39,448 bases of DNA from a virus: positions 1-39,448 of IMG/VR virus record IMGVR_UViG_3300032282_001127; one strand, written 5' to 3'. The position numbers and the translations under genes are program-made. The notes under the pieces were generated by a model. The model did not search any database. It saw only the letters and a list, made by a program, of their open reading frames with translations, and was not told the origin of the DNA. Positions 3,320 to 36,205 of the stretch are shown here, piece by piece (within the stretch, counting starts at the first letter, position 1; each line of letters starts with the position of its first letter).

Positions 3320-5620
3320 ATGGCATTACCAAACTCCGAAAAGATCACATCGCAGATTGCGATGTTGCCCGATGCTGCTTTGAAGCAGATGGCCATGATG
3401 CACAAGAGCGATCCGTACGTTCTTCCTTTGATTATTTCCGAAGACGGCCGCCGTAAACAGATGCGCCAAGCCGCGCAAGCTCAGATGGCCGCAATGCCAC
3501 AGCCCAAAGTAAACGAAGCCGCTTTAGCTCAGATGGGGATGCTTCCTGAAGACCAAGGTATTGGTATGCTCGCCGCCCCAAATATGCAGCGCATGGCTGA
3601 CGGCGGTATTGCGGGTTATGGCGATGACGAAGGTATGGCGCAGGGAGGTATGCTTGACTTTGCCCAGCGTAGCGAGCCTGTGCTTCGCATGGCTTCTGGC
3701 GGTGTACCCGGCTATAAAGTCGGTGGTCTGACCCCAGAACTAGAAAAGTTCATTGACGAACAAGCCAAACTGAACGGTATTCCTTCTTCTACGTTGCGTG
3801 CCGTTATTCAGGCTGAGAGCGAAGGCAAAGTTGGCGCACAAAGCAAAACTTCTACTGCGCAGGGCTTGATGCAAATCATTAACGACACGTTCCGTCGTGG
3901 CGGTGGCGATCCTGAAAAGCGCAAAGATCCCTTTGAAAACATTCGCGTAGGTGCTAAGGTCTTGGGTCAGGATGCGGCTGCTTTGCGTGGCCAGTTAAAG
4001 CGGGATGTCACGCCAGAAGAACTGTACGCAACTCACGTACTTGGCCGCGGTACAGGTTCACGCTTGTTGCAAGCCGACCCCAACATGACAATGGCACAGG
4101 TTCTCAAATCGGCTGACCCAGAGAATGCCGACAAAATTATCAGCAGCAACTCTAAGTTGTTTGGCGATGGCAAGAAAACCGTTGGCGAAGTCATGCAGAC
4201 GTTTTCTAACAAAATGGCGTCAGCCATGCCAGTTGCTTCTGCGCAAGCAGGCGAGCCACCAAAAAATACTTCCACGCAACCAGAAGCTCTGACCGAAAAA
4301 GAACGTGCTGCGCTTGAACAGCCAGCATTTATGACGCCTTCATCTGGCAAAGGCCGTAAAGAAGGCAAGTTGTCCGAAGTTATTAAATCTGGTGAAGCAC
4401 CTCGTCAAATGGCTTTGGGTGTGGGCGACTTGCCCTATAACCTTGCCGGCGCTCCTATGGATATTGGGTATGCTGTTAGTAAAGCGTTTGGCAACAAAGG
4501 CCCTGCGCCCGCCCTTGGCAGTGAGCATTTAAAACAGCTTGGCACTAAGTACTTAGGGCGCGAAGCAGACTCAACAGACCCCACATTGCGCGGTTTCCGT
4601 ACTGCTGGTGAGTTGGGTAGTATGGTTGTTGACCCGTTTTCTGCAACCCGTAAAGTAGCGCAAACCGCTGAAGGTTTAGAAGCCCTAGCCCTTGCACAAA
4701 GAGCTAAAACCGCTGAAGCCGAAGCTAAAGTTGCCACGCCTGTAGGCATGCGTTTAGAGCCGCCCCGTACAGAACCCCCTGTCATGGTTGCTGATGCTCA
4801 AGGCCGTGTTATGCCTGCGGATACCCGCGCTCGTGTACAACAAGCTTTGGCTGACGAAGCCGCTGTGGGTACGGAAGCTGCAAAAGCGGCTCAACTGGAA
4901 AAACAAGCCGCCGCATACCCCGGCTCTATGCAACGCGCAGAAATGGAACGTTTGGCAGGTACGTCAGACAAAGTGCGTGGGACGGCGTTGGCCGCAGAAG
5001 CTGGTGATCTTGCTGAGTCTGGCATCAAAACGCTTACCAAAACAGAAGCACCCACTGAACGCCCAGAAGTTGGTGAATCTGTTTCGGGTACGTATGACAC
5101 CACAATACCCAAACCTTCTGATGTTATTGCCGCGGCTAAAGAGGCTACGCCTGCTAAAGAACGCAAAGGTTTTGACAATGAAGATTTGTTGATGCTGGGC
5201 TTAAGTTTGATGGCTAACAAGTCACCCAACTTCTTCAATGCTCTGGGCGAGTCCGGTATCCAAACGCTGACTGCCAAAAAAGCGCGTGAGAAGAACGAGA
5301 CTGACATTGAGTACAAAGACATCATGAAGAAGTACTACGGCGCTCTTGGCACAAAAGCCGAAGCAGAGTCCAAGAACTTGGAAGCCGGTACAAAGTACAA
5401 CGCGGCTGCACGCCAGCATGCTATGGACAATATCTCACGTGAGATGGCTAAGTGGTACTCTACACTGGGCGGTATGAACCCCACACCACAAGAGGAAGAA
5501 ACCAAACGCAACTCGTTGGTACGACAATACTTCCCCTTGGCAGGGTTAGAAGTTCCCAGTACAATTAGTGCACCAGCGCCCTCTGCCGGATTTAAGGTTT
5601 TAGGGAGCCGCCCACAATAA
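3320..5620 (+). CDS. Virion protein with lytic transglycosylase (SLT) domain
   Basis: A 766-aa virion-associated murein hydrolase, expected to make a local opening in peptidoglycan during DNA entry. The SLT-type domain spans about residues 137-270. The putative catalytic Glu166 is in VIQAESEGK, followed by the family motif STAQGLMQI (178-186) and a conserved YATHVLGRG stretch near 236-244. Residues 90-135 carry two copies of an MA-x-GG-x-x-GY motif shared with the first gene. The rest is Ala/Glu/Lys-rich helix, with a hydrophobic LLMLGLSLMANKSPNF segment near 618-633 of a kind common in phage structural proteins. It lacks a signal peptide and holin neighbours, so it is an entry enzyme rather than the lysis endolysin. 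Its place just before the giant ejection-type protein fits a podovirus internal-protein set. Confidence 0.85.
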   Translation: MALPNSEKITSQIAMLPDAALKQMAMMHKSDPYVLPLIISEDGRRKQMRQAAQAQMAAMPQPKVNEAALAQMGMLPEDQGIGMLAAPNMQRMADGGIAGYGDDEGMAQGGMLDFAQRSEPVLRMASGGVPGYKVGGLTPELEKFIDEQAKLNGIPSSTLRAVIQAESEGKVGAQSKTSTAQGLMQIINDTFRRGGGDPEKRKDPFENIRVGAKVLGQDAAALRGQLKRDVTPEELYATHVLGRGTGSRLLQADPNMTMAQVLKSADPENADKIISSNSKLFGDGKKTVGEVMQTFSNKMASAMPVASAQAGEPPKNTSTQPEALTEKERAALEQPAFMTPSSGKGRKEGKLSEVIKSGEAPRQMALGVGDLPYNLAGAPMDIGYAVSKAFGNKGPAPALGSEHLKQLGTKYLGREADSTDPTLRGFRTAGELGSMVVDPFSATRKVAQTAEGLEALALAQRAKTAEAEAKVATPVGMRLEPPRTEPPVMVADAQGRVMPADTRARVQQALADEAAVGTEAAKAAQLEKQAAAYPGSMQRAEMERLAGTSDKVRGTALAAEAGDLAESGIKTLTKTEAPTERPEVGESVSGTYDTTIPKPSDVIAAAKEATPAKERKGFDNEDLLMLGLSLMANKSPNFFNALGESGIQTLTAKKAREKNETDIEYKDIMKKYYGALGTKAEAESKNLEAGTKYNAAARQHAMDNISREMAKWYSTLGGMNPTPQEEETKRNSLVRQYFPLAGLEVPSTISAPAPSAGFKVLGSRPQ

Positions 5621-12525: not shown

Positions 12526-15489
12526 TCAAGCCGCGGCCACGGATAGAGGATTGATAACTTCTTCATCCAAACTAGAAATTTCTCTCGAAATCTTCATGGT
12601 AGCTACCCGCATGGGTGGGCCACTGGTTCTTGCCATCAAGTCTTTCTTGGGCATGTAGGACACTACAAATTGTTTCTCAAGCTGGCGCTTAAAGTCAGCG
12701 TAGCCAAAGCTCATGTTGGAGCAGAAAGTTTTCAGTAAGCGTTCCTCAATGTAGAAGTCAACGTGGTTGGCTGTTACGCCGTGCTCCACGCGCCCCATAA
12801 CTACCGAGCGGGTTGTGGACGAGTCAATCAAAGCGGTGTCCCCAAGCAAAGCACTAGCGCCTGACTTGGCGTTGAAACGCACCACCACAAACTTGCCGTA
12901 GTTCTCTTGGATGAAGCCGTTGAGCACATCCTCTGCGTTGCGCTTGCTCGACCTGACTGTGCCACGGGCTACGTTGACACGGCCTTTCAAGAATTCCTTG
13001 ATCTCATTGAGTGGAAAGTCAACAATGTTCAGATACTTATTGCCGAGTACTGCGCCCGCCGTCATGATTGTGCCCACACCCGCCATCCAAAAGCGTTCGT
13101 CGTTTGTGGCGTTGAAATCTTTGTAGCAGTTGCGCACGACATCAGGCACAAGCGTTTTGAGCATCGGTACATTCTTGGCCAAGAACTCAGCCAACTCGTG
13201 GCCAACTACGCCGTAGTTGTCTTGCAAGGACTTGATGACTTCAATCTCATGGGGTTCCCACGACAGTTCTTCGTCCATGACAAACTCCAGAACACGGCGC
13301 ATCTCACCTTCCGATGAGTGCTTGCGGGAGCCTGTTAGGTAGTCCACTACGTGGGTGTTGGAGGACATGATGGCCACTGTCTGCCAGATAGAAAGGTTCA
13401 AGCGTTCCTTGTTAGCGCCTGACTCCATACGCTCCTTGCCGCGACCCTCGGTCATGTCCAGTAGGAACTCGGGAAACCACTCAGCATCCTTGCGGTTCTT
13501 GGCGGTGATCTCATCGGTCACCAAGGGCAAACTTTGCAGCAGACCAAGGCGTTGCTGCATTGCAACAGGAGAAGTGCTCTTGCCTGTGCGGTAATGGGTT
13601 GGATGCCCCCAGATCGAAGCCGCCCCTTCCAGTGCCAGTGACTTACCTGTACCGGACTCGGTTGAACCGCAGTGATAAGTCATGCCGTAGATGCCCGTAA
13701 ACCGCATAAAAGGGGCGCTGGCGCCTGCCAAAATGACAGAGAGGTGCCCATACAGCCTCTTGGCAATAAGCATCTTGATGAACGTCACCCAGTTCTCAAT
13801 CGAGCCCTTTGGTTTGGTGTTGGCCACAATGTTTTCTAAGCCGGGCATCGGCACTTCCACAGGTGCGGATGTGGCACTGTAAATTTTACCAGCGTAAACA
13901 AAAGTACTATTCTCTTGCCAGCCGTAGTTGGCCGGAACTTTGACGGGTGATTTGTCGTTGCTCATCTTCTCAACGCTTGCGCGTATGTAATCAAACAAAT
14001 TCTTATCGTTACCTCGGCCAAATGCCGCCACGATGTTTTGATTGGCCAGCGTCTTAACTGTTTCGTCTTGGCTCACGACAGCCTTCTGCGCCATCGTAAT
14101 GGTCTGCGCACCCTCGCGCCTGATGGCCATGAGGTGTACTGTGTGCTCTCCGTTGTGACTCAAGATGTCCACAGGGAAAAGATCGTAGGGAATAATCATG
14201 ACGTTGCGCATAACTTTGTTGCCCTGCGCGTCTTCGTCTTCCTTCTGAATAAACACGCCACCACGCTCGCCGTAAGCGTAGCCACGGGGTGCTTCAGGGC
14301 GAAGCACTTTCTTGACTTCCTCATCCATCGCAACGCGGGGCAACTCCACCACGCTTTCAACAGTCGTCACCGACATCTCACGCCCAAAGATCAGCGGGTT
14401 TGTAATTTTTCCCCAGTGTTGACAGCCGGGGCAAACACCGGGGTTTTCCGAGTCCATCTTGGTGCAGGGGTAGGGGCCTTTGATCTCAGCCAACTTGGTG
14501 CGCATGCGGTCTTCGCTGTAGGGGTGCATGTCACTGATCCACTTTGATGCACCTTCGCCATCCACACAGACCTTCGTCCATGAAAGGATTCCGCGCCACA
14601 GAGGTTCCATCCCATCTTCAGCCGCGTGTTCCACGTAGTGTGAAATCTGGCCACAGCCTGTACCCGCACGGGTCTTGACCACGATGTTCTTAAAGCGCGT
14701 GACGCTGTTCTCAAACAACTTGACCTGACTTGCGCTTGGTGCGGCTGGCCTAGTACCGGGAAGCTCAACCACATTGTCAGGCGGCTTGGCCATGCTTACT
14801 TCGTACTGCGTACCAATCAGATTCTTCTCAACGACAGCGCGGATGTCTACCAAATCGAACACAGCGCCTTCGCTCATGAAGCGCACGTTGGTTTGCTCCC
14901 GAACCTTCTTCTTGTTCTTGATGCCGGTATTGATTGTGGCAGGGATACGCAAAACGCGGGATGCGTCTGACGTAACTGTGGGGTCAATGTCCAGCTTGTT
15001 CTGGTAGCACATGCGCTTGAACGCCTCGGCCACAGGCTTCCACTCGTTGACATCCACGGCCTCAGTCAGCGGCCAGTATGCGTGCACACCACCGCCAGAC
15101 GCCACCATCCAAGGGTCGCCTAATGCAGACAGCCCAGTAGTCTCGGTGAAATCCATGATGGCTTGAGCCGCCAGCTTCGCACTAGCGTATGCCTTGGGTT
15201 TGATGTTGCCTTCCGCATCCGGCAAGTCTTTGGGATGGTTGCAGTCTACGTCGATGGCAAAGGTCTTGACCATGTGCACGTTGTCCGCAGTCCGGTTGTT
15301 GTCGTCCCCGAATGTACCTAACGCAAAGTAAATGTCTTCACCCGCCTTCTTCCATCTGTTGATGAAAGGTTGTGCTTCCTCCAGTGTGTGAACATAGGCA
15401 TGCTCTTTTTTTCTTGAAAGTTCCACCACGCAATAGCGCCCATTTCCGGGCGGTGGCAAAACCGCCGCTACAAACTCAAGCGGTTCCAT
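12526..15489 (-). CDS. Primase-helicase (AEP-like primase plus DUF927/SF3-like ATPase)
   Basis: A 987-aa replication protein expected to make primers and unwind DNA at the phage fork. The N-terminal domain looks like an archaeo-eukaryotic-type primase: FAIDVDC gives Asp80 and Asp82, SGGGVHAYW gives the Ser-Gly-Gly/His136 motif, and SRVLRIPATIN (about 177-187) follows. A middle part with CPGC may bind zinc. The C-terminal ATPase has Walker A GSTESGTGKS at about residues 606-616 and Walker B-like LVTDEI after it, as in DUF927 helicase modules. A weak AAGG site precedes the ATG by 8 bases. It is the last gene of early unit C, downstream of the candidate SSB and HTH genes. The primase assignment is less certain than the ATPase. 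Confidence 0.82.
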   Translation of the reverse strand: MEPLEFVAAVLPPPGNGRYCVVELSRKKEHAYVHTLEEAQPFINRWKKAGEDIYFALGTFGDDNNRTADNVHMVKTFAIDVDCNHPKDLPDAEGNIKPKAYASAKLAAQAIMDFTETTGLSALGDPWMVASGGGVHAYWPLTEAVDVNEWKPVAEAFKRMCYQNKLDIDPTVTSDASRVLRIPATINTGIKNKKKVREQTNVRFMSEGAVFDLVDIRAVVEKNLIGTQYEVSMAKPPDNVVELPGTRPAAPSASQVKLFENSVTRFKNIVVKTRAGTGCGQISHYVEHAAEDGMEPLWRGILSWTKVCVDGEGASKWISDMHPYSEDRMRTKLAEIKGPYPCTKMDSENPGVCPGCQHWGKITNPLIFGREMSVTTVESVVELPRVAMDEEVKKVLRPEAPRGYAYGERGGVFIQKEDEDAQGNKVMRNVMIIPYDLFPVDILSHNGEHTVHLMAIRREGAQTITMAQKAVVSQDETVKTLANQNIVAAFGRGNDKNLFDYIRASVEKMSNDKSPVKVPANYGWQENSTFVYAGKIYSATSAPVEVPMPGLENIVANTKPKGSIENWVTFIKMLIAKRLYGHLSVILAGASAPFMRFTGIYGMTYHCGSTESGTGKSLALEGAASIWGHPTHYRTGKSTSPVAMQQRLGLLQSLPLVTDEITAKNRKDAEWFPEFLLDMTEGRGKERMESGANKERLNLSIWQTVAIMSSNTHVVDYLTGSRKHSSEGEMRRVLEFVMDEELSWEPHEIEVIKSLQDNYGVVGHELAEFLAKNVPMLKTLVPDVVRNCYKDFNATNDERFWMAGVGTIMTAGAVLGNKYLNIVDFPLNEIKEFLKGRVNVARGTVRSSKRNAEDVLNGFIQENYGKFVVVRFNAKSGASALLGDTALIDSSTTRSVVMGRVEHGVTANHVDFYIEERLLKTFCSNMSFGYADFKRQLEKQFVVSYMPKKDLMARTSGPPMRVATMKISREISSLDEEVINPLSVAAA

Positions 15490-30541: not shown

Positions 30542-32263
30542 TCATTCTCCTTGTGTTTCTAAGTATTTGTTTGCGATCTCATTGGCTTGTGCCATGAGGT
30601 TGGTGCTGAGTTCGGTGCGTATCAGTTTGGTGAACGCCTCGTTGTCGATACCGCTAATGAACTCCAGTGTGAAGACACGCTCGGCATATAGCATACGGCC
30701 GTCAAGCGTGTAAGTCAGGCTGATCTTTACTCGGTCAACATAACAGGCGTAGTCCCATATCATCATCACCTTGTCAAGCATATCCATCGTCAGCATGGTA
30801 GGCATACCCTCGTCCTCATCGATGCGCTTGTCAGCCGTAGCGTCAGCTATCTCCTGCGGTACGTAGTCATCGTGGTAACGCTCGCCCTTGTACTCGGTGA
30901 ACTTGTCGCAGTCGTCAGAGTACCAGTTGCATGACGAAGCGCATTGCCATCCGTCCTCGGTCAAGCCGTACTCATCGGTGTCCTCGAACCGACACACACG
31001 CTCATCGTCCATCAGGTACCAGTCACCATTGATCTCAATGGCCTCATCCATCGGGGCGTACTCACCGCACTCAAGCTCGATGATCTCGTTATCAGACAGG
31101 TAGTCCATATCGTAGGACTCACTCTGCGAGTCGACATACACCACGTTGTCCTGATGCACATAGTATTGATTGCCACGCCTGCCATACACATAGGTGTAGT
31201 GGTCATTGAGACACGACTCGCAGACACGAGTGTCCTCACCACGTCCGATCCAGTACCCGTCATCGTCAGAGGTGCGGTCGCCACAGTCCTCGCAGTCAAA
31301 GGAGTTCTCATCCTCCTCATCGTTGGTAGCATACCCGCCTGTGTTCTCGCATATCCAGTCACCATCGGAGTCGATCACAAGCCAACGCTCATGCTCGTTG
31401 ACCTCAACATGACGCTCACCGCCATCGAGGTAGGGTGCAAGGAAGTTGTCCCGCGCAGGATGGTACGCCAGCTTCTCACCATCACGCCAGTAACTCTCCT
31501 TGGTGTAGCCTTGTTCCTTGAGCCAAGTATCCATGCCGTCATCTGTCTGACTGTACGAAGACTCACTGGAAGGACGCAAGTAACTGCGAACGAAATACTT
31601 CTTGCCATCTTGCGGTGAGGTCATACACAGAGCACGACCCATCGTCACATCACCCTCGATGCGAACCGCCATGTGCCAGCCATACTTGGGATCGTATGCC
31701 TCGTAGGGGTGACGGGTCACGCCATCATCACACTTAATACCATGATCCTCGCTCCACACCATGCACGACTTGGGCCCACGATGTAGGTGGTAGATCATCT
31801 CAGCGGTAGTGTGTACGAGTTGGAAGCGTGCGGCTGATCCGTAGCGTGAGACAAGATCACGGATGGTGTGATCGGGTAAGTCGAAGTGGCGGTTGAGATA
31901 CTTGCCTACTGATGTGACAGTCTGAATATCTTTCTGACCCTTGGCCTCGTTCTGTGTGTAGGCAATCTTTGAGCGATCACCTTGGGACTCATGCGGATGC
32001 TCAAGCAGTAGTTGGTGCCAGTCTCTTGGCCGTGCCAGCTTGATGGCCGCATTGATGACGCCATGCACGGGATACTTGTCGAACTCACGAATGATCCAGT
32101 ACCTAGCCTCACGCTTGGCGCTGAGTGCCGCCATCTCGTCTCTGTCATCTGCGAGGTGCCATTGGCGTCTAAGCTCACCATCGACACGGCGTATCGCATC
32201 GTATGCTCTGCGCATTGTGTCGACCATGTCTTGCCAGTCGTATGTGTTGTTTGTAGTTGTCAT
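30542..32263 (-). CDS. Large acidic protein with zinc knuckles
   Basis: A 573-aa protein, the largest of unit A, of unknown function. Residues 1-170 are helical and moderately basic. Residues about 290-500 are strongly acidic and carry paired cysteines (FDCEDCGDRT near 323-333, VCESCL near 349, later CASSCNW), which suggests repeated zinc-binding knuckles. Tyr/Asp-rich segments such as DNEIIELECGEYAPMD look like tandem small beta units. The C-terminus (about 505-573) is a separate folded part. AAAAGGAG precedes the ATG, 20 bases from a GGGTCA dyad. It overlaps the zinc-peptidase frame by one start codon choice, so the two are co-translated. DNA mimicry or scaffold roles are possible but not shown. 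Confidence 0.6.
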   Translation of the reverse strand: MTTTNNTYDWQDMVDTMRRAYDAIRRVDGELRRQWHLADDRDEMAALSAKREARYWIIREFDKYPVHGVINAAIKLARPRDWHQLLLEHPHESQGDRSKIAYTQNEAKGQKDIQTVTSVGKYLNRHFDLPDHTIRDLVSRYGSAARFQLVHTTAEMIYHLHRGPKSCMVWSEDHGIKCDDGVTRHPYEAYDPKYGWHMAVRIEGDVTMGRALCMTSPQDGKKYFVRSYLRPSSESSYSQTDDGMDTWLKEQGYTKESYWRDGEKLAYHPARDNFLAPYLDGGERHVEVNEHERWLVIDSDGDWICENTGGYATNDEEDENSFDCEDCGDRTSDDDGYWIGRGEDTRVCESCLNDHYTYVYGRRGNQYYVHQDNVVYVDSQSESYDMDYLSDNEIIELECGEYAPMDEAIEINGDWYLMDDERVCRFEDTDEYGLTEDGWQCASSCNWYSDDCDKFTEYKGERYHDDYVPQEIADATADKRIDEDEGMPTMLTMDMLDKVMMIWDYACYVDRVKISLTYTLDGRMLYAERVFTLEFISGIDNEAFTKLIRTELSTNLMAQANEIANKYLETQGE

Positions 32264-32925: not shown

Positions 32926-33099
32926 TTATTCCATTCCGTTGTCTGCATCTGTACCGAAGGTCATCAGATGTTGGTTCATTAAGTCTTCCGCTTCCGCGTA
33001 GGTATCGAATAGGTTGTCGCCGTTGATGTCATGGATGTAGTCACCCGCATCGTCCTCGACCATGTACCCATTCATTGTTATGATTACTGATAATTTCAT
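32926..33099 (-). CDS. Small acidic protein (57 aa) behind a pseudoknot
   Basis: ATG at 33099 follows AAGGAG by 6 bases; the longer frame to 33156 runs through a structured leader and is rejected. The protein starts MKLSVIITMNGYMVEDD, with a strand then acidic loops and a helix (TYAEAEDLMNQHL), a small alpha/beta fold of unknown function. The pseudoknot at 33122-33170 ends 10 bases upstream of its ribosome site and may control its translation. Confidence 0.6.
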   Translation of the reverse strand: MKLSVIITMNGYMVEDDAGDYIHDINGDNLFDTYAEAEDLMNQHLMTFGTDADNGME

Positions 33100-33121
33100 T
33101 TCATTCTCCTTAGTTGCAAGT

Positions 33122-33170
33122 GCCGTGTGATTTTCAAGGTAGGGTGCGACTGCCACACGGCGAAGCAGTC
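33122..33170 (-). ncRNA. Candidate H-type pseudoknot leader
   Basis: On the minus-strand RNA, stem 1 is GACTGC (33170-33165) with GCAGTC (33153-33148). Stem 2 is GCCGTGTG (33161-33154) with CACACGGC (33129-33122). Loop 1 is TTC, there are 0 bases between stems, and loop 3 has 18 bases. Both stems are perfect. It begins 11 bases after a stop codon and ends 10 bases before the next ribosome site, so control of translation is likely. Confidence 0.65.
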
Positions 33171-33178
33171 ACACATTC

Positions 33179-33193
33179 GGGTCACTGTGACCC
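33179..33193. repeat. GGGTCA dyad copy c
   Basis: GGGTCACTGTGACCC, flanked by C and G. The stop codon (33184-33182) and final residues GSQ of the upstream coiled-coil gene lie inside it. Confidence 0.85.
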
Positions 33194-33898
33194 GTATTTG
33201 TTCAGCCCATGCCACGTTGCAGGCACAGGCTCGTCTTCATCTAGTACATCCATCAGGTCTAGCGCATATCTGATCTGCCTCACCTTGGACTCGTTGTCCT
33301 CGCATGGGTCTAGCGTTTGTGTTTGTTCTGCGATGGCCAACTCTTTTAGTGTGCGGTTCTTCAACCGCGTAAGCTGCTTGGCGTGAAGCGTTGCGGGCAC
33401 TAGCCTCTCGAATGGGATTTTGATTTTCGCCTTTGGCTTGCGTTCGATCTGCTCGAACAGGTCGAGCACCCGCCCTTTGATTTTCGCGGGTATCCAATCA
33501 GTCCAGTGTGTGCCATCGTTGGGCAAGTCCTTGTCTGACGCAATCATCGTGGGCGTCTTGCGATCTTGCTTGCAGTGGTTAATCATTTTCGCTTTCAGTG
33601 CGTTGAGCACAGTCAGGTATGCCTCCAGTGCATCGCGCCTTGCCTCATCATTTTCGCCACCTTTGTATCGCAACATACCTTGCACGTTGTCACGCTCAGC
33701 TTCAAGGGGTTGCATGAACTCACGCCACAGATGCGTGAGTTGTTTGGTTCTGGCGTTCTCAGACTTGAGTAACGCCTGTTGTTCGGCTACGATTTTCTTG
33801 ATCGACTCGGCTTGGAATGGCGGGGTTTTGCGTGCCACGAGGCGAGCGTGAAGCTGGTTTGGGGTGAGTTTTAAGTAGTGTTTGTAGGGGGTATCCAT
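33182..33898 (-). CDS. Basic helical protein of unknown function (238 aa)
   Basis: A Lys/Arg/Gln-rich, almost all-helical protein with coiled-coil potential at about residues 30-110. AKIKIPFE and AKIKGRV segments share the underlying DNA word GCGAAAAT. No domain recognised. The gene starts directly beside the candidate origin (33924-34213), so a role in replication initiation or DNA binding is a reasonable guess from position and charge. The ribosome site is weak (AGAAAGCG before the ATG). Confidence 0.55.
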   Translation of the reverse strand: MDTPYKHYLKLTPNQLHARLVARKTPPFQAESIKKIVAEQQALLKSENARTKQLTHLWREFMQPLEAERDNVQGMLRYKGGENDEARRDALEAYLTVLNALKAKMINHCKQDRKTPTMIASDKDLPNDGTHWTDWIPAKIKGRVLDLFEQIERKPKAKIKIPFERLVPATLHAKQLTRLKNRTLKELAIAEQTQTLDPCEDNESKVRQIRYALDLMDVLDEDEPVPATWHGLNKYGSQ

Positions 33899-34244
33899 GA
33901 TTTTCGCTTTCTAGGGTTGGAGGTATCCGTGAACTTTCGCAACTATCCGCAAGGTCAGACACTCTGCAGACCGCATGAACGCTAGTGTACAGGTAAAAGT
34001 GTCCAAGTATCTATCTGTTTTGAGAAATGCTTTCAATCTACAAGGTTTGCAGGGATGGTCGAGCTTGCGGAAATGTGCACACATATAAATAAATACTCCC
34101 ATATATATAAGTATATTTAAAAAGATAGATAGATGGACAGTTTTTCAAGGACGCCAGTATCCACGCGGGTTTGCGGATGTCTGACCTTGCGGATAGTTGC
34201 GAAAATGTGGATAGGTAGTTTTTGAGTGTGATTTTCGCGACTCG
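33899..34244. other. Intergenic region: candidate replication origin with long inverted repeat
   Basis: 346 bases without a gene. Arms 33935-34021 and 34119-34204 form an imperfect inverted repeat around a 97-base AT-rich core. The outer 27 bases (33935-33961 with 34178-34204) are perfect. The inner 21 or so (34001-34021 with 34119-34138) match at about 18 positions. TATCCRCA-type words, one base from DnaA boxes, occur at 33924, 33944, 34158, 34172 (reverse), 34188 (reverse) and 34206 (reverse). Dyad, AT-rich core and boxes together suggest an origin. A miniature transposable element or a large structured RNA are the alternatives. Confidence 0.5.
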
Positions 34245-34421
34245 TCATTTTCGGGTCATCGTGACCCGTATTTCGGCTTGGGCTTCCATGTCTTCCACGC
34301 GTCTGAGCATGAAGCTACGCTTGGCATCACGCTCGATCTTCTCCATGTACTTGGGGCGTTGCTCGTTGTTCCACTTAGCGAGCGCGACTTGCTTGGGTGA
34401 GTAGTGTTTGAATTTAGACAT
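34245..34421 (-). CDS. Small basic protein (58 aa)
   Basis: Begins MSKFKHYSPKQVALAKWNNE and is highly charged and helical, ending IRVTMTRK. The last seven codons are made from a copy of the GGGTCA dyad, as if the repeat had extended the gene. GAGGAG lies 6 bases before the ATG. The gene lies directly beside the candidate origin. Confidence 0.55.
   Translation of the reverse strand: MSKFKHYSPKQVALAKWNNEQRPKYMEKIERDAKRSFMLRRVEDMEAQAEIRVTMTRK
34253..34267. repeat. GGGTCA dyad copy d
   Basis: GGGTCATCGTGACCC, arms identical to the other copies, centre TCG. It is inside the 3' end of the 58-aa gene. Confidence 0.8.
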
Positions 34422-34424
34422 GGT

Positions 34425-34598
34425 TTACTCCTCGATGCGGGCAATGATGTTGAGAACTGTACGGGCGGTGAAGCCTGTGAAGATGAGTAAGGCTTGGCGT
34501 AACCAAAAGCCATCGCCATCCCACGCGATGTAGAGTGTGAAGCAAGTTAGTGCCATGCCGATAACTGAGGCAACGGCTAAGTGTTGATTGTTTGTCAT
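34425..34598 (-). CDS. Small membrane protein (57 aa)
   Basis: ATG at 34598 has AAGGAG 8 bases upstream; the longer frame is not supported. Two hydrophobic helices (about 7-25 and 33-50), the first ending TLYIAWDGDG. No family recognised. Four bases separate its stop from the 58-aa gene start. Confidence 0.65.
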   Translation of the reverse strand: MTNNQHLAVASVIGMALTCFTLYIAWDGDGFWLRQALLIFTGFTARTVLNIIARIEE

Positions 34599-34642
34599 AA
34601 GATTTTCTCCTTGGGGTTTTTGAATAGACAAGAAACGAAACA

Positions 34643-34697
34643 ACGAGAGAAGCTCTTTCTCTCGTGTTCGCAGAAAAAAGCGGGTCACAGTGACCCG
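34643..34697 (-). terminator. Tandem hairpins, leftward terminator
   Basis: On the minus strand the GGGTCA dyad (34681-34697, stem CGGGTCA/TGACCCG) is followed by CTTTTTTC. A second stem (ACGAGAGAA 34043-type arm at 34643-34651 with TTCTCTCGT at 34657-34665, 5-base loop) is followed by TTGTTTCGTTTC. They lie just after the 126-aa gene, so transcription into the rest of unit A may be reduced. Confidence 0.65.
34682..34696. repeat. GGGTCA dyad copy e
   Basis: GGGTCACAGTGACCC within a terminator-like hairpin; 5 bases after the stop of the 126-aa gene. The only copy followed by a T-run on the minus strand. Confidence 0.85.
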
Positions 34698-34701
34698 AAA
34701 A

Positions 34702-35082
34702 TCATGCAACGAGAACCGCCAAGGCTTTGCGTTGCTGTGCAGGGGTGAGTTTGCCAAAGGCTTCGATGATTTTCGCAACAGGGTCAGCAGGTTCTTTCTT
34801 GCCACTCGACGCCCTGCGCGTAGTTCCTTCGATCATCAGCATGATGTCACGCACCACAGTCTTCGCGCCCTCGTAGTTCGTGCTACTGGTGACGAGCATG
34901 GCCTTGGTTTTCGCCTTGTTCCACCGATACTCCGCGCCAGTCTTATCGCAAGCCCACTCGATCACAATGGGTTTGCACGCTTCCACTGTGGTGTAACCCG
35001 CATCACGCATACCCTTGATGAGTGAAACGCGAGAATCAGCGAATGTGTCGAGAACTGTAAATGCTTTTGCTTTGTTTGACAT
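34702..35082 (-). CDS. First early protein of unit A (126 aa)
   Basis: A basic protein, mostly helical, with no recognised domain. Two parts are visible: residues 1-90 (with TVEACKPIVIEWACDKTGAEYRW) and a Lys/Pro linker before a C-terminal helix (VAKIIEAFGKLTPAQQRKAL). AAGGAG lies 8 bases before the ATG. As the first gene after the strong early promoter and followed at once by terminator-like hairpins, it should be the most abundant early protein. Host takeover or DNA binding are plausible roles. Confidence 0.65.
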   Translation of the reverse strand: MSNKAKAFTVLDTFADSRVSLIKGMRDAGYTTVEACKPIVIEWACDKTGAEYRWNKAKTKAMLVTSSTNYEGAKTVVRDIMLMIEGTTRRASSGKKEPADPVAKIIEAFGKLTPAQQRKALAVLVA

Positions 35083-35184
35083 GGTGTTTTCTCCTTGATG
35101 TCGTTGTTGCTTCAGAGCGAATCCCTGAAACTGTCTCCATTGTGCGGTGACCCCTGTTTGATCGCCCTCTATCCCTCTGTTTTC

Positions 35185-35199
35185 GGGTCACTTTGACCC
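35185..35199. repeat. GGGTCA dyad copy f (degenerate centre)
   Basis: GGGTCACTTTGACCC, arms GGGTCA/TGACCC with centre CTT. Two further TTTTTGACC half-sites follow at 35212-35220 and 35232-35240, spaced about 20-22 bases. Confidence 0.7.
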
Positions 35200-35405
35200 T
35201 GTTTTGGGGTGTTTTTGACCTTTTTTGGCAGTTTTTGACCCCTACCCTACCCCCACCAGCCCAAATTCCCATGCACCCACGCTGCCAGATACGAACACTG
35301 TTCCATAACCGCACAGCAAACTTTGTAATAACTTAGTTCTAAATCACCCCACCCCCCAAATAAAACCAAGAAATTCCTACAAACCAAAGTATTCACCCCA
35401 TAAAT

Positions 35406-35446
35406 TTTATAAAAATTCAGAAACACCTTTGTCTAATCTTAGACAA
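35406..35446 (-). promoter_or_regulatory. Early promoter with operator, unit A
   Basis: On the minus strand -35 TAGACA (35435-35430) and -10 TATAAA (35411-35406), each 5 of 6 to consensus, are 18 bases apart. The -35 is one half of the perfect dyad TTGTCTAATCTTAGACAA (35429-35446), so a repressor there would block polymerase. The transcript would have a leader of about 320 bases before the first gene (35082). Confidence 0.75.
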
Positions 35447-35450
35447 CCCC

Positions 35451-35493
35451 AAATAAAAAAATCCCCCGGGCATCTGCAGACGTTCCGGGGGAT
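35451..35493 (-). terminator. Leftward terminator without an upstream gene
   Basis: Perfect 9-bp stem ATCCCCCGG (35461-35469) with CCGGGGGAT (35485-35493). On the minus strand it is followed by TTTTTTATTT, a classic Rho-independent pattern. No minus-strand gene lies to its right in the window. Confidence 0.8.
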
Positions 35494-35543
35494 GAAGATG
35501 GCAACTGGATACCACCAAGGAGAAAGCAAGCGAACTTGATGAG

Positions 35544-35560: not shown

Positions 35561-35629
35561 ACGATCTTGCGCACCCACTCCATTTAAGTGTACATTAGAG
35601 TCATCGCAGGTTCAAGGGCTTATGCGCAG

Positions 35630-36205
35630 ATGTTAGATCACTTAATCAATTTCGAACCCGAGGTGCAGGAGCATCAGGGGGACTTTCGCTCCATGGACAA
35701 GACTGATCCATCGGACGTGGTCGACGGCATGGCCAAAACGGTTGACTGGCTCAAGGAACTTGGAGCCATAGACACAGATACTTTGGTCAATGAGTCCCAA
35801 AGCCAAGCAGCGCGTACTGCTTTCACAAGTATCGTCACCGCCAAACCTGCGGAAATGACGCATACCTCTCTAGCAAATATCAAAACGCCAGAAGCCGTGC
35901 AACGTTTGGTCGGCATGCTCTCCGCCTATGACTGGGAATTTATACAGCAGGCCAAGGAAATCAGAGGCTACACAGTGGCCAAGCTGGTAGAAGAAACCGA
36001 ACACCCCAACGCCAACATCCGCTTGAAAGCGCTGGGTTTGCTGGGTAAAGTCACGGAAGTTGGCCTCTTTACAGAGAAGATTGAGGTCAAGAAGACCGAG
36101 TTGTCAGACACAGAGTTGGAAACGCGCATCAAAGAGAAGCTCAACAGGTTCATGGGCGTGATCGATGTGATCGACGTTACGGAAGACAAATCTGATGAAG
36201 CGTGA
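35630..36205 (+). CDS. terS: Terminase small subunit (putative)
   Basis: A 191-aa protein expected to recognise phage DNA and feed it to the large subunit. The second half has LVGMLSAYDWEFIQQAKEIR and EETEHPNANIRLKALGLLGK, then KVTEVGLFTEKIEV, a pattern I know from small terminase subunits of tailed phages. The C-terminus ends in a charged tail. I use the ATG at 35630 (AAGGG 11 bases upstream, somewhat far); an in-frame GTG at 35588 lacks any ribosome site. The 3' end overlaps the large subunit gene by 11 bases, the usual terS-terL order. Confidence 0.75.
   Translation: MLDHLINFEPEVQEHQGDFRSMDKTDPSDVVDGMAKTVDWLKELGAIDTDTLVNESQSQAARTAFTSIVTAKPAEMTHTSLANIKTPEAVQRLVGMLSAYDWEFIQQAKEIRGYTVAKLVEETEHPNANIRLKALGLLGKVTEVGLFTEKIEVKKTELSDTELETRIKEKLNRFMGVIDVIDVTEDKSDEA

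Follow-up and report, generated by a model that had tools for sequence, protein, structure and literature searches.

A conserved inverted repeat with an AT-rich core, probably a stem-loop replication origin, in a group of uncultivated phages

The inverted repeat and its genomic setting

The DNA analysed here, called the window, comprises the full 39,448 bases of an IMG/VR virus record. It looks like a fragment, as close relatives that share its gene order reach about 60 kb. Leftward transcription of the early region begins at a divergent promoter region near 35.4 kb, and the one sizeable gap that an earlier note on this DNA had described within the early region is indeed there: 357 bp separate the open reading frames at 33182-33898 and 34256-34519 (both on the minus strand) and are filled by a long inverted repeat, the dyad. 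The first of these frames encodes a conserved protein of 238 aa, and in nearly all relatives its gene lies directly downstream of the dyad. The protein is predicted to be all-helical (AlphaFold2 pLDDT 89), and it gave no family match and no Foldseek match in the PDB below an E value of 0.99; on account of this fold and the missing structural match it was rejected as a candidate initiator. The phage also encodes a sigma-region-4 protein.

The left arm of the dyad (33924-34045) was delimited by aligning it locally to the right arm (34099-34213) in reverse complement; the right arm is also supported by covariation among 19 relatives, and the best-paired parts are 33935-34020 and 34119-34204. The alignment scores 106, against a mean of 23.5 (sd 4.1, maximum 39) for 200 dinucleotide-preserving shuffles, and no other dyad of the window comes close to it (126, with 76 for the runner-up). 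Its outer part is a perfect repeat of 27 bp, 33935-33961 on the plus strand being the exact reverse complement of 34178-34204, the copy on the minus strand. The inward continuation of the pairing that had been noticed earlier was found as well, the 86-nt arms (33935-34020 and 34119-34204) being 76% complementary, and the loop, described as AT-rich, contains the 60 bp with the highest AT content in the window (48 of 60). Positions 33000-35500, used as a DNA query against the phage collection, gave no match.

Short palindromes of the form CGGGTCAnnnTGACCCG occur in the gaps around the dyad, at 33178-33194, 34252-34268, 34681-34697 and 35185-35199, and a clear T-run is present in only one of them. 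Palindromes of the same form and of other sequence occupy similar places in relatives (CGGGGACAnnnTGTCCCCG in G003, GTGGGACAGCTGTCCCAC in L051 and GGGGTCAAAATGACCCC in L189). Such elements might have a lineage-specific role, as operators or terminators or as processing hairpins.

The terminase small subunit gene (35588-36205) lies about 1.4 kb from the dyad, and this proximity would suit a packaging site (pac or cos) or a site for the processing of concatemers. However, the terminase gene belongs to a different transcription unit and the contigs of the relatives begin at varied places, not at the dyad. Moreover, we know of no pac site with an architecture of dyad plus core, and we regard such a function as very improbable.

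Conservation of the place and of the pairing

The dyad was recovered in relatives by several routes. A query with a 573-aa early protein (30542-32263) returned 48 loci, and where the region is present, the highest-scoring dyad of the locus lies at the equivalent position in most cases; related IMG/VR phages have it immediately upstream of their version of the 238-aa gene. When whole relatives were considered, the dyad ranked first in three of four genomes and second in the remaining one. An independent scan of 2.9 million IMG/VR contigs for the pattern of the core gave 33 contigs, flanked at the dyad by genes of the same neighbourhood, and the dyad score was high in all but one, whose contig begins at the core. 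A second set of relatives was found through the primase-helicase discussed below (60-66% identical), and in seven of the eight genomes of this set with an adjacent 238-aa gene the dyad ranks first within the stretch that was retrieved. Within the same set, G007 has the dyad in place although its 238-aa gene is about 4 kb off, and G010 has kept the core with weak arms. The dyad is also weak in some other core-bearing relatives (L012, L025-L027 and L039). The alignment of relatives, which had been proposed as a check, came out in favour of the dyad: it is found in the same place, and its pairing is kept while the letters diverge. The dyad at 33924-34213 is real and conserved.

Some contigs end close to the core or the dyad (L072, L080 and L093), perhaps because a long inverted repeat breaks the assembly. 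The same dyad was not recognised in the scanned parts of the records of the isolates HTVC023P, DSL-LC04, Rollin and RHph_TM3_14A. AT-rich non-coding gaps are present in the last two. In Pseudomonas phage Rollin, positions 1-980 of the locus (L066) are non-coding, carry four palindromic repeats of 25-30 nt like AAAAGGTAGCAAGTTACTACCTTTT and are very AT-rich near 520; the phage has a related primase-helicase, and the stretch is possibly its iteron origin.

Covariation of the arms was evaluated on an alignment of 19 relatives with a structure of 36 pairs. Standard pairs occupy 85.9% of the cells, compared with 66.9 +/- 1.2% in shuffles, and both sides have changed in 29 of the 36 pairs; since the structure was derived by RNAalifold from the same alignment these figures lean towards it, but controls in which the partner was slid by 1-3 columns are still far off (31-46% paired, and 10-34 double-change cells as against 129 in register). 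Among nine non-overlapping pairs of relatives, Watson-Crick pairing was kept in 14 of 18 double changes. The arms can form a large stem-loop in which the pairing, and not the sequence, is conserved.

The core, the flanking boxes and the level of action

The conservation is of another kind in the core of the dyad. This AT-rich element (34096-34123, minus strand; TTTTTAAATATACTTATATATATGGGAG) is asymmetric, reads TTTTTAAATATATATTTATATATAGGAG on the minus strand and is a candidate unwinding element. Its sequence is nearly fixed among the loci of the relatives and its orientation never varies. The motif was found in six of eight records, with one copy per whole relative genome of about 60 kb, and in all four whole relatives examined the 60 bp richest in AT are those of the core. 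No exact match was obtained in bacterial or archaeal genomes. Loose matches outside the group (L199 and L202) fall in TA repeats on contigs from which the marker genes are absent; in L199 (IMGVR_UViG_3300044986_000600), an unrelated-looking contig with none of the marker genes found on it, the match is at 4877 of the locus and a long near-perfect inverted repeat flanks a TA run.

This conservation bears on the possibility that the dyad is a quasi-palindrome without function. Template switching between inverted repeats homogenises their arms (PMC8604942) and could have kept the two arms alike; it is nevertheless hard to reconcile with a core whose sequence is conserved across lineages and whose place and orientation are constant. 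We give this explanation the least credit of all.

Two inverted boxes of 18 bp flank the core. One is CCGCATNAATACTRGCGT-like and reads here CCGCGTGGATACTGGCGT (34151-34168, minus strand), its partner is CCGCATGAACGCTAGTGT (33971-33988, plus strand), and in several lineages the pair is placed about -60 and +120 relative to the core. Inverted boxes at a fixed spacing, around an AT-rich core upstream of a gene and in a phage that encodes a sigma-region-4 protein, are what would be expected if sites for a phage regulator flanked an AT-rich promoter, that is, a double operator serving the early operon or the 238-aa gene. Nevertheless no sigma-70-like promoter was found at the dyad, the core is present once per genome, unlike a promoter class, and the pairing extends far past two operator-sized sites, which makes this reading improbable.

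The earlier note had also raised a structured RNA of the minus strand, on the view that the inner mismatches are mostly transitions and that many of them would form G-U pairs there. The count does not bear this out: 6 mismatches are G-U, 8 are A-C and 10 are of other kinds. Across 26 genomes, in an alignment that scores G-U and A-C equally, the leftward strand has 187 G-U against 314 A-C mismatches; the ratio of 0.60, compared with 0.76 expected from base composition (shifted-register control), amounts to a small excess on the other strand, with cells that are not independent. G-U pairs on the leftward strand are, if anything, depleted. The region folds into structures far more stable than those of shuffled sequences (z of about -12 and -9), with the two strands about equally stable, and Rfam gave no match at the gathering score.

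A long hairpin in the mRNA, acting as the 5' leader of the 238-aa gene, as an RNase III site or as a regulatory RNA, would agree with the position of the dyad by the start of this gene in a region transcribed leftward, with the stability of the fold and with the strong covariation; the weak tilt of the mismatches would even suit a rightward-strand RNA. The leftward strand, however, is the one without G-U enrichment and folds no better than the other, the Rfam search was negative, and in G007 the dyad has stayed in place with the 238-aa gene about 4 kb away. We consider such an RNA unlikely. As G-U pairs are not enriched on the strand that a leftward RNA would use, a role at the level of the DNA is more likely than one in a minus-strand RNA, and a DNA-level function of the dyad is the simplest reading.

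A probable origin and its candidate initiator

The proposal that the dyad is a replication origin was at first founded in part on DnaA boxes, and this part of its foundation was rejected. Six TATCCRCA-type words had been claimed in and beside the arms, whereas only three exact matches are present there (33944 on the plus strand, 34188 and 34206 on the minus strand), two of which are the arms of one dyad; TATCC or GGATA of any kind occurs five times in 33900-34240. The DnaA-like box at 34206, CTATCCACA, does have a single mismatch as stated, but it is one of 11 such boxes in the window. Among 21 elements none has the perfect box TTATCCACA, and one-mismatch boxes are present in six, at differing positions. 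Since most relatives lack both the TATCCRCA words and the DnaA-like boxes, a DnaA basis is not supported. The skew check was negative as well: the turning point of GC and purine skew is not at the dyad but some 1.25 kb from it, where the minimum follows the divergent promoter, and since the skew follows gene direction it does not mark the dyad. A search for the single-subunit RNA polymerase that would accompany a T7-like primary origin (PF00940) gave no match in six relatives, with control genomes equally silent.

An origin remains the best explanation on other grounds, namely the conserved position, the covarying arms, the single-copy AT-rich core and an initiator-type helicase-primase that the phage itself appears to encode. 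We believe that the dyad is probably a phage replication origin of the stem-loop type. Our confidence is restrained by the weakness of the dyad in some relatives, its distance from the initiator gene and a skew that is uninformative.

The candidate initiator is a protein of 987 aa (12526-15489, minus strand), whose gene lies at 12.5-15.5 kb, about 20 kb from the dyad at 34 kb. It matches the Pfam family DUF927 (E=1.6e-20); the model of the Cch1 cassette helicase is matched weakly, far below its cut-off. The structure predicted by AlphaFold2 (mean pLDDT 74.6, pTM 0.46) was compared with known folds. The helicase half (residues ~397-980) resembles SCCmec Cch (5dgk; Foldseek 5e-14, Z 21.5) and the SaPIbov1 Rep initiator (8tch; Foldseek 6e-13, Z 19.2), and the N-terminus (~1-224) resembles the AEP PrimPol of cyanophage S-2L (6zp9; Z 18.1) and the RepB' primase of RSF1010 (Z 13.2). 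A search of the PDB by protein sequence returned nothing relevant, so that only the comparison of folds gave matches. Judging from the model, the protein is an archaeo-eukaryotic-type (AEP) primase fused to a helicase of the self-loading initiator type. Relatives of the primase-helicase are encoded in 268 IMG/VR stretches. DUF927 domains in AEP proteins are predicted helicases of mobile-element replication (PMC5862659) and SaPI Rep helicases recognise and bind their cognate origin (PMC7581432); by analogy, a Cch/SaPIbov1-Rep-like initiator is the kind of protein that needs an origin of its own. We infer that the 987-aa protein acts at the dyad.

The following course of events can be envisaged. 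The primase-helicase, with its DUF927/MCM-like self-loading helicase, would recognise the inverted arms, and the AT-rich core beside them would melt. The exposed strands, able to refold into the arms, would serve for helicase loading and primer synthesis; helicase rings would load, the linked primase would prime the exposed strands, perhaps once per strand, and forks would depart from the dyad. The conjectural parts of this scheme are the binding of the initiator at the dyad, the melting of the core as the first event, the direction in which forks travel, and arms that act as a hairpin and not just as inverted sites for a protein. A broader version would hold for the whole group: the extruded stem would be what is selected, one polypeptide would combine PrimPol and SaPI-Rep/Cch-like parts, the core would melt and each strand would have its priming hairpin. 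This version is tentative, and we find it somewhat doubtful as it stands.

If the dyad is an origin, these dsDNA phages would offer a natural covarying set for an origin of the hairpin type, and its likely initiator as well. It would become directly testable whether AEP-primase-helicase initiators recognise a hairpin or duplex sites in inverted orientation, and the dyad would be a landmark for annotating replication in this uncultivated group of ~60-kb phages.

Comparison with known origins

The AT-rich core recalls the AT-rich unwinding region accompanied by short boxes of a DnaA-dependent oriC, although the DnaA-like boxes are not conserved here. Herpes simplex oriS has inverted origin boxes round an AT-rich spacer and forms a hairpin in the unwound origin (PMC12543377), a likeness that is an analogy only as the proteins and the viruses are unrelated.

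SaPIbov1 Rep and SCCmec Cch, the closest structural matches of the helicase half, are self-loading initiators. SaPI origins contain arrays of short iterons next to rep (PMC7581432), whereas the phage has a single long dyad at a great distance from the initiator gene and a primase fused to the helicase. An iteron array typical of SaPIs was not evident in the window, which holds only three 12-nt near-copies ending in TTGCGGA, and the origin directly downstream of rep is replaced by a separation of about 20 kb.

The Sulfolobus plasmid pRN1, which encodes an AEP-primase-helicase, has a stem-loop of 100 nt whose structural integrity is required for replication; the structure is conserved with low sequence conservation and a similar stem-loop exists in phage BIP-1 (PMC4234260). 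It is the putative origin, direct proof of initiation there being lacking according to the same paper (PMC4234260). The dyad shares with this type the large stem-loop of conserved structure and poorly conserved sequence, as well as a primase and a helicase in one protein. It differs in being about three times longer, in its AT-rich, sequence-conserved core and in a helicase that is DUF927/Cch/SaPI-Rep-like; moreover the stem-loop of pRN1 lies directly downstream of the initiator gene. As the adjacency of origin and initiator gene that characterises both the pRN1/BIP-1 and the SaPI types is missing here, the candidate is assigned to neither. The oriV of RSF1010 depends on three separate proteins and iterons, unlike the single polypeptide of the phage, but at its ssiA and ssiB hairpins an AEP primase, RepB', works on stem-loop sites (PMC4234260, PMC4538821), as is proposed for the dyad described here.
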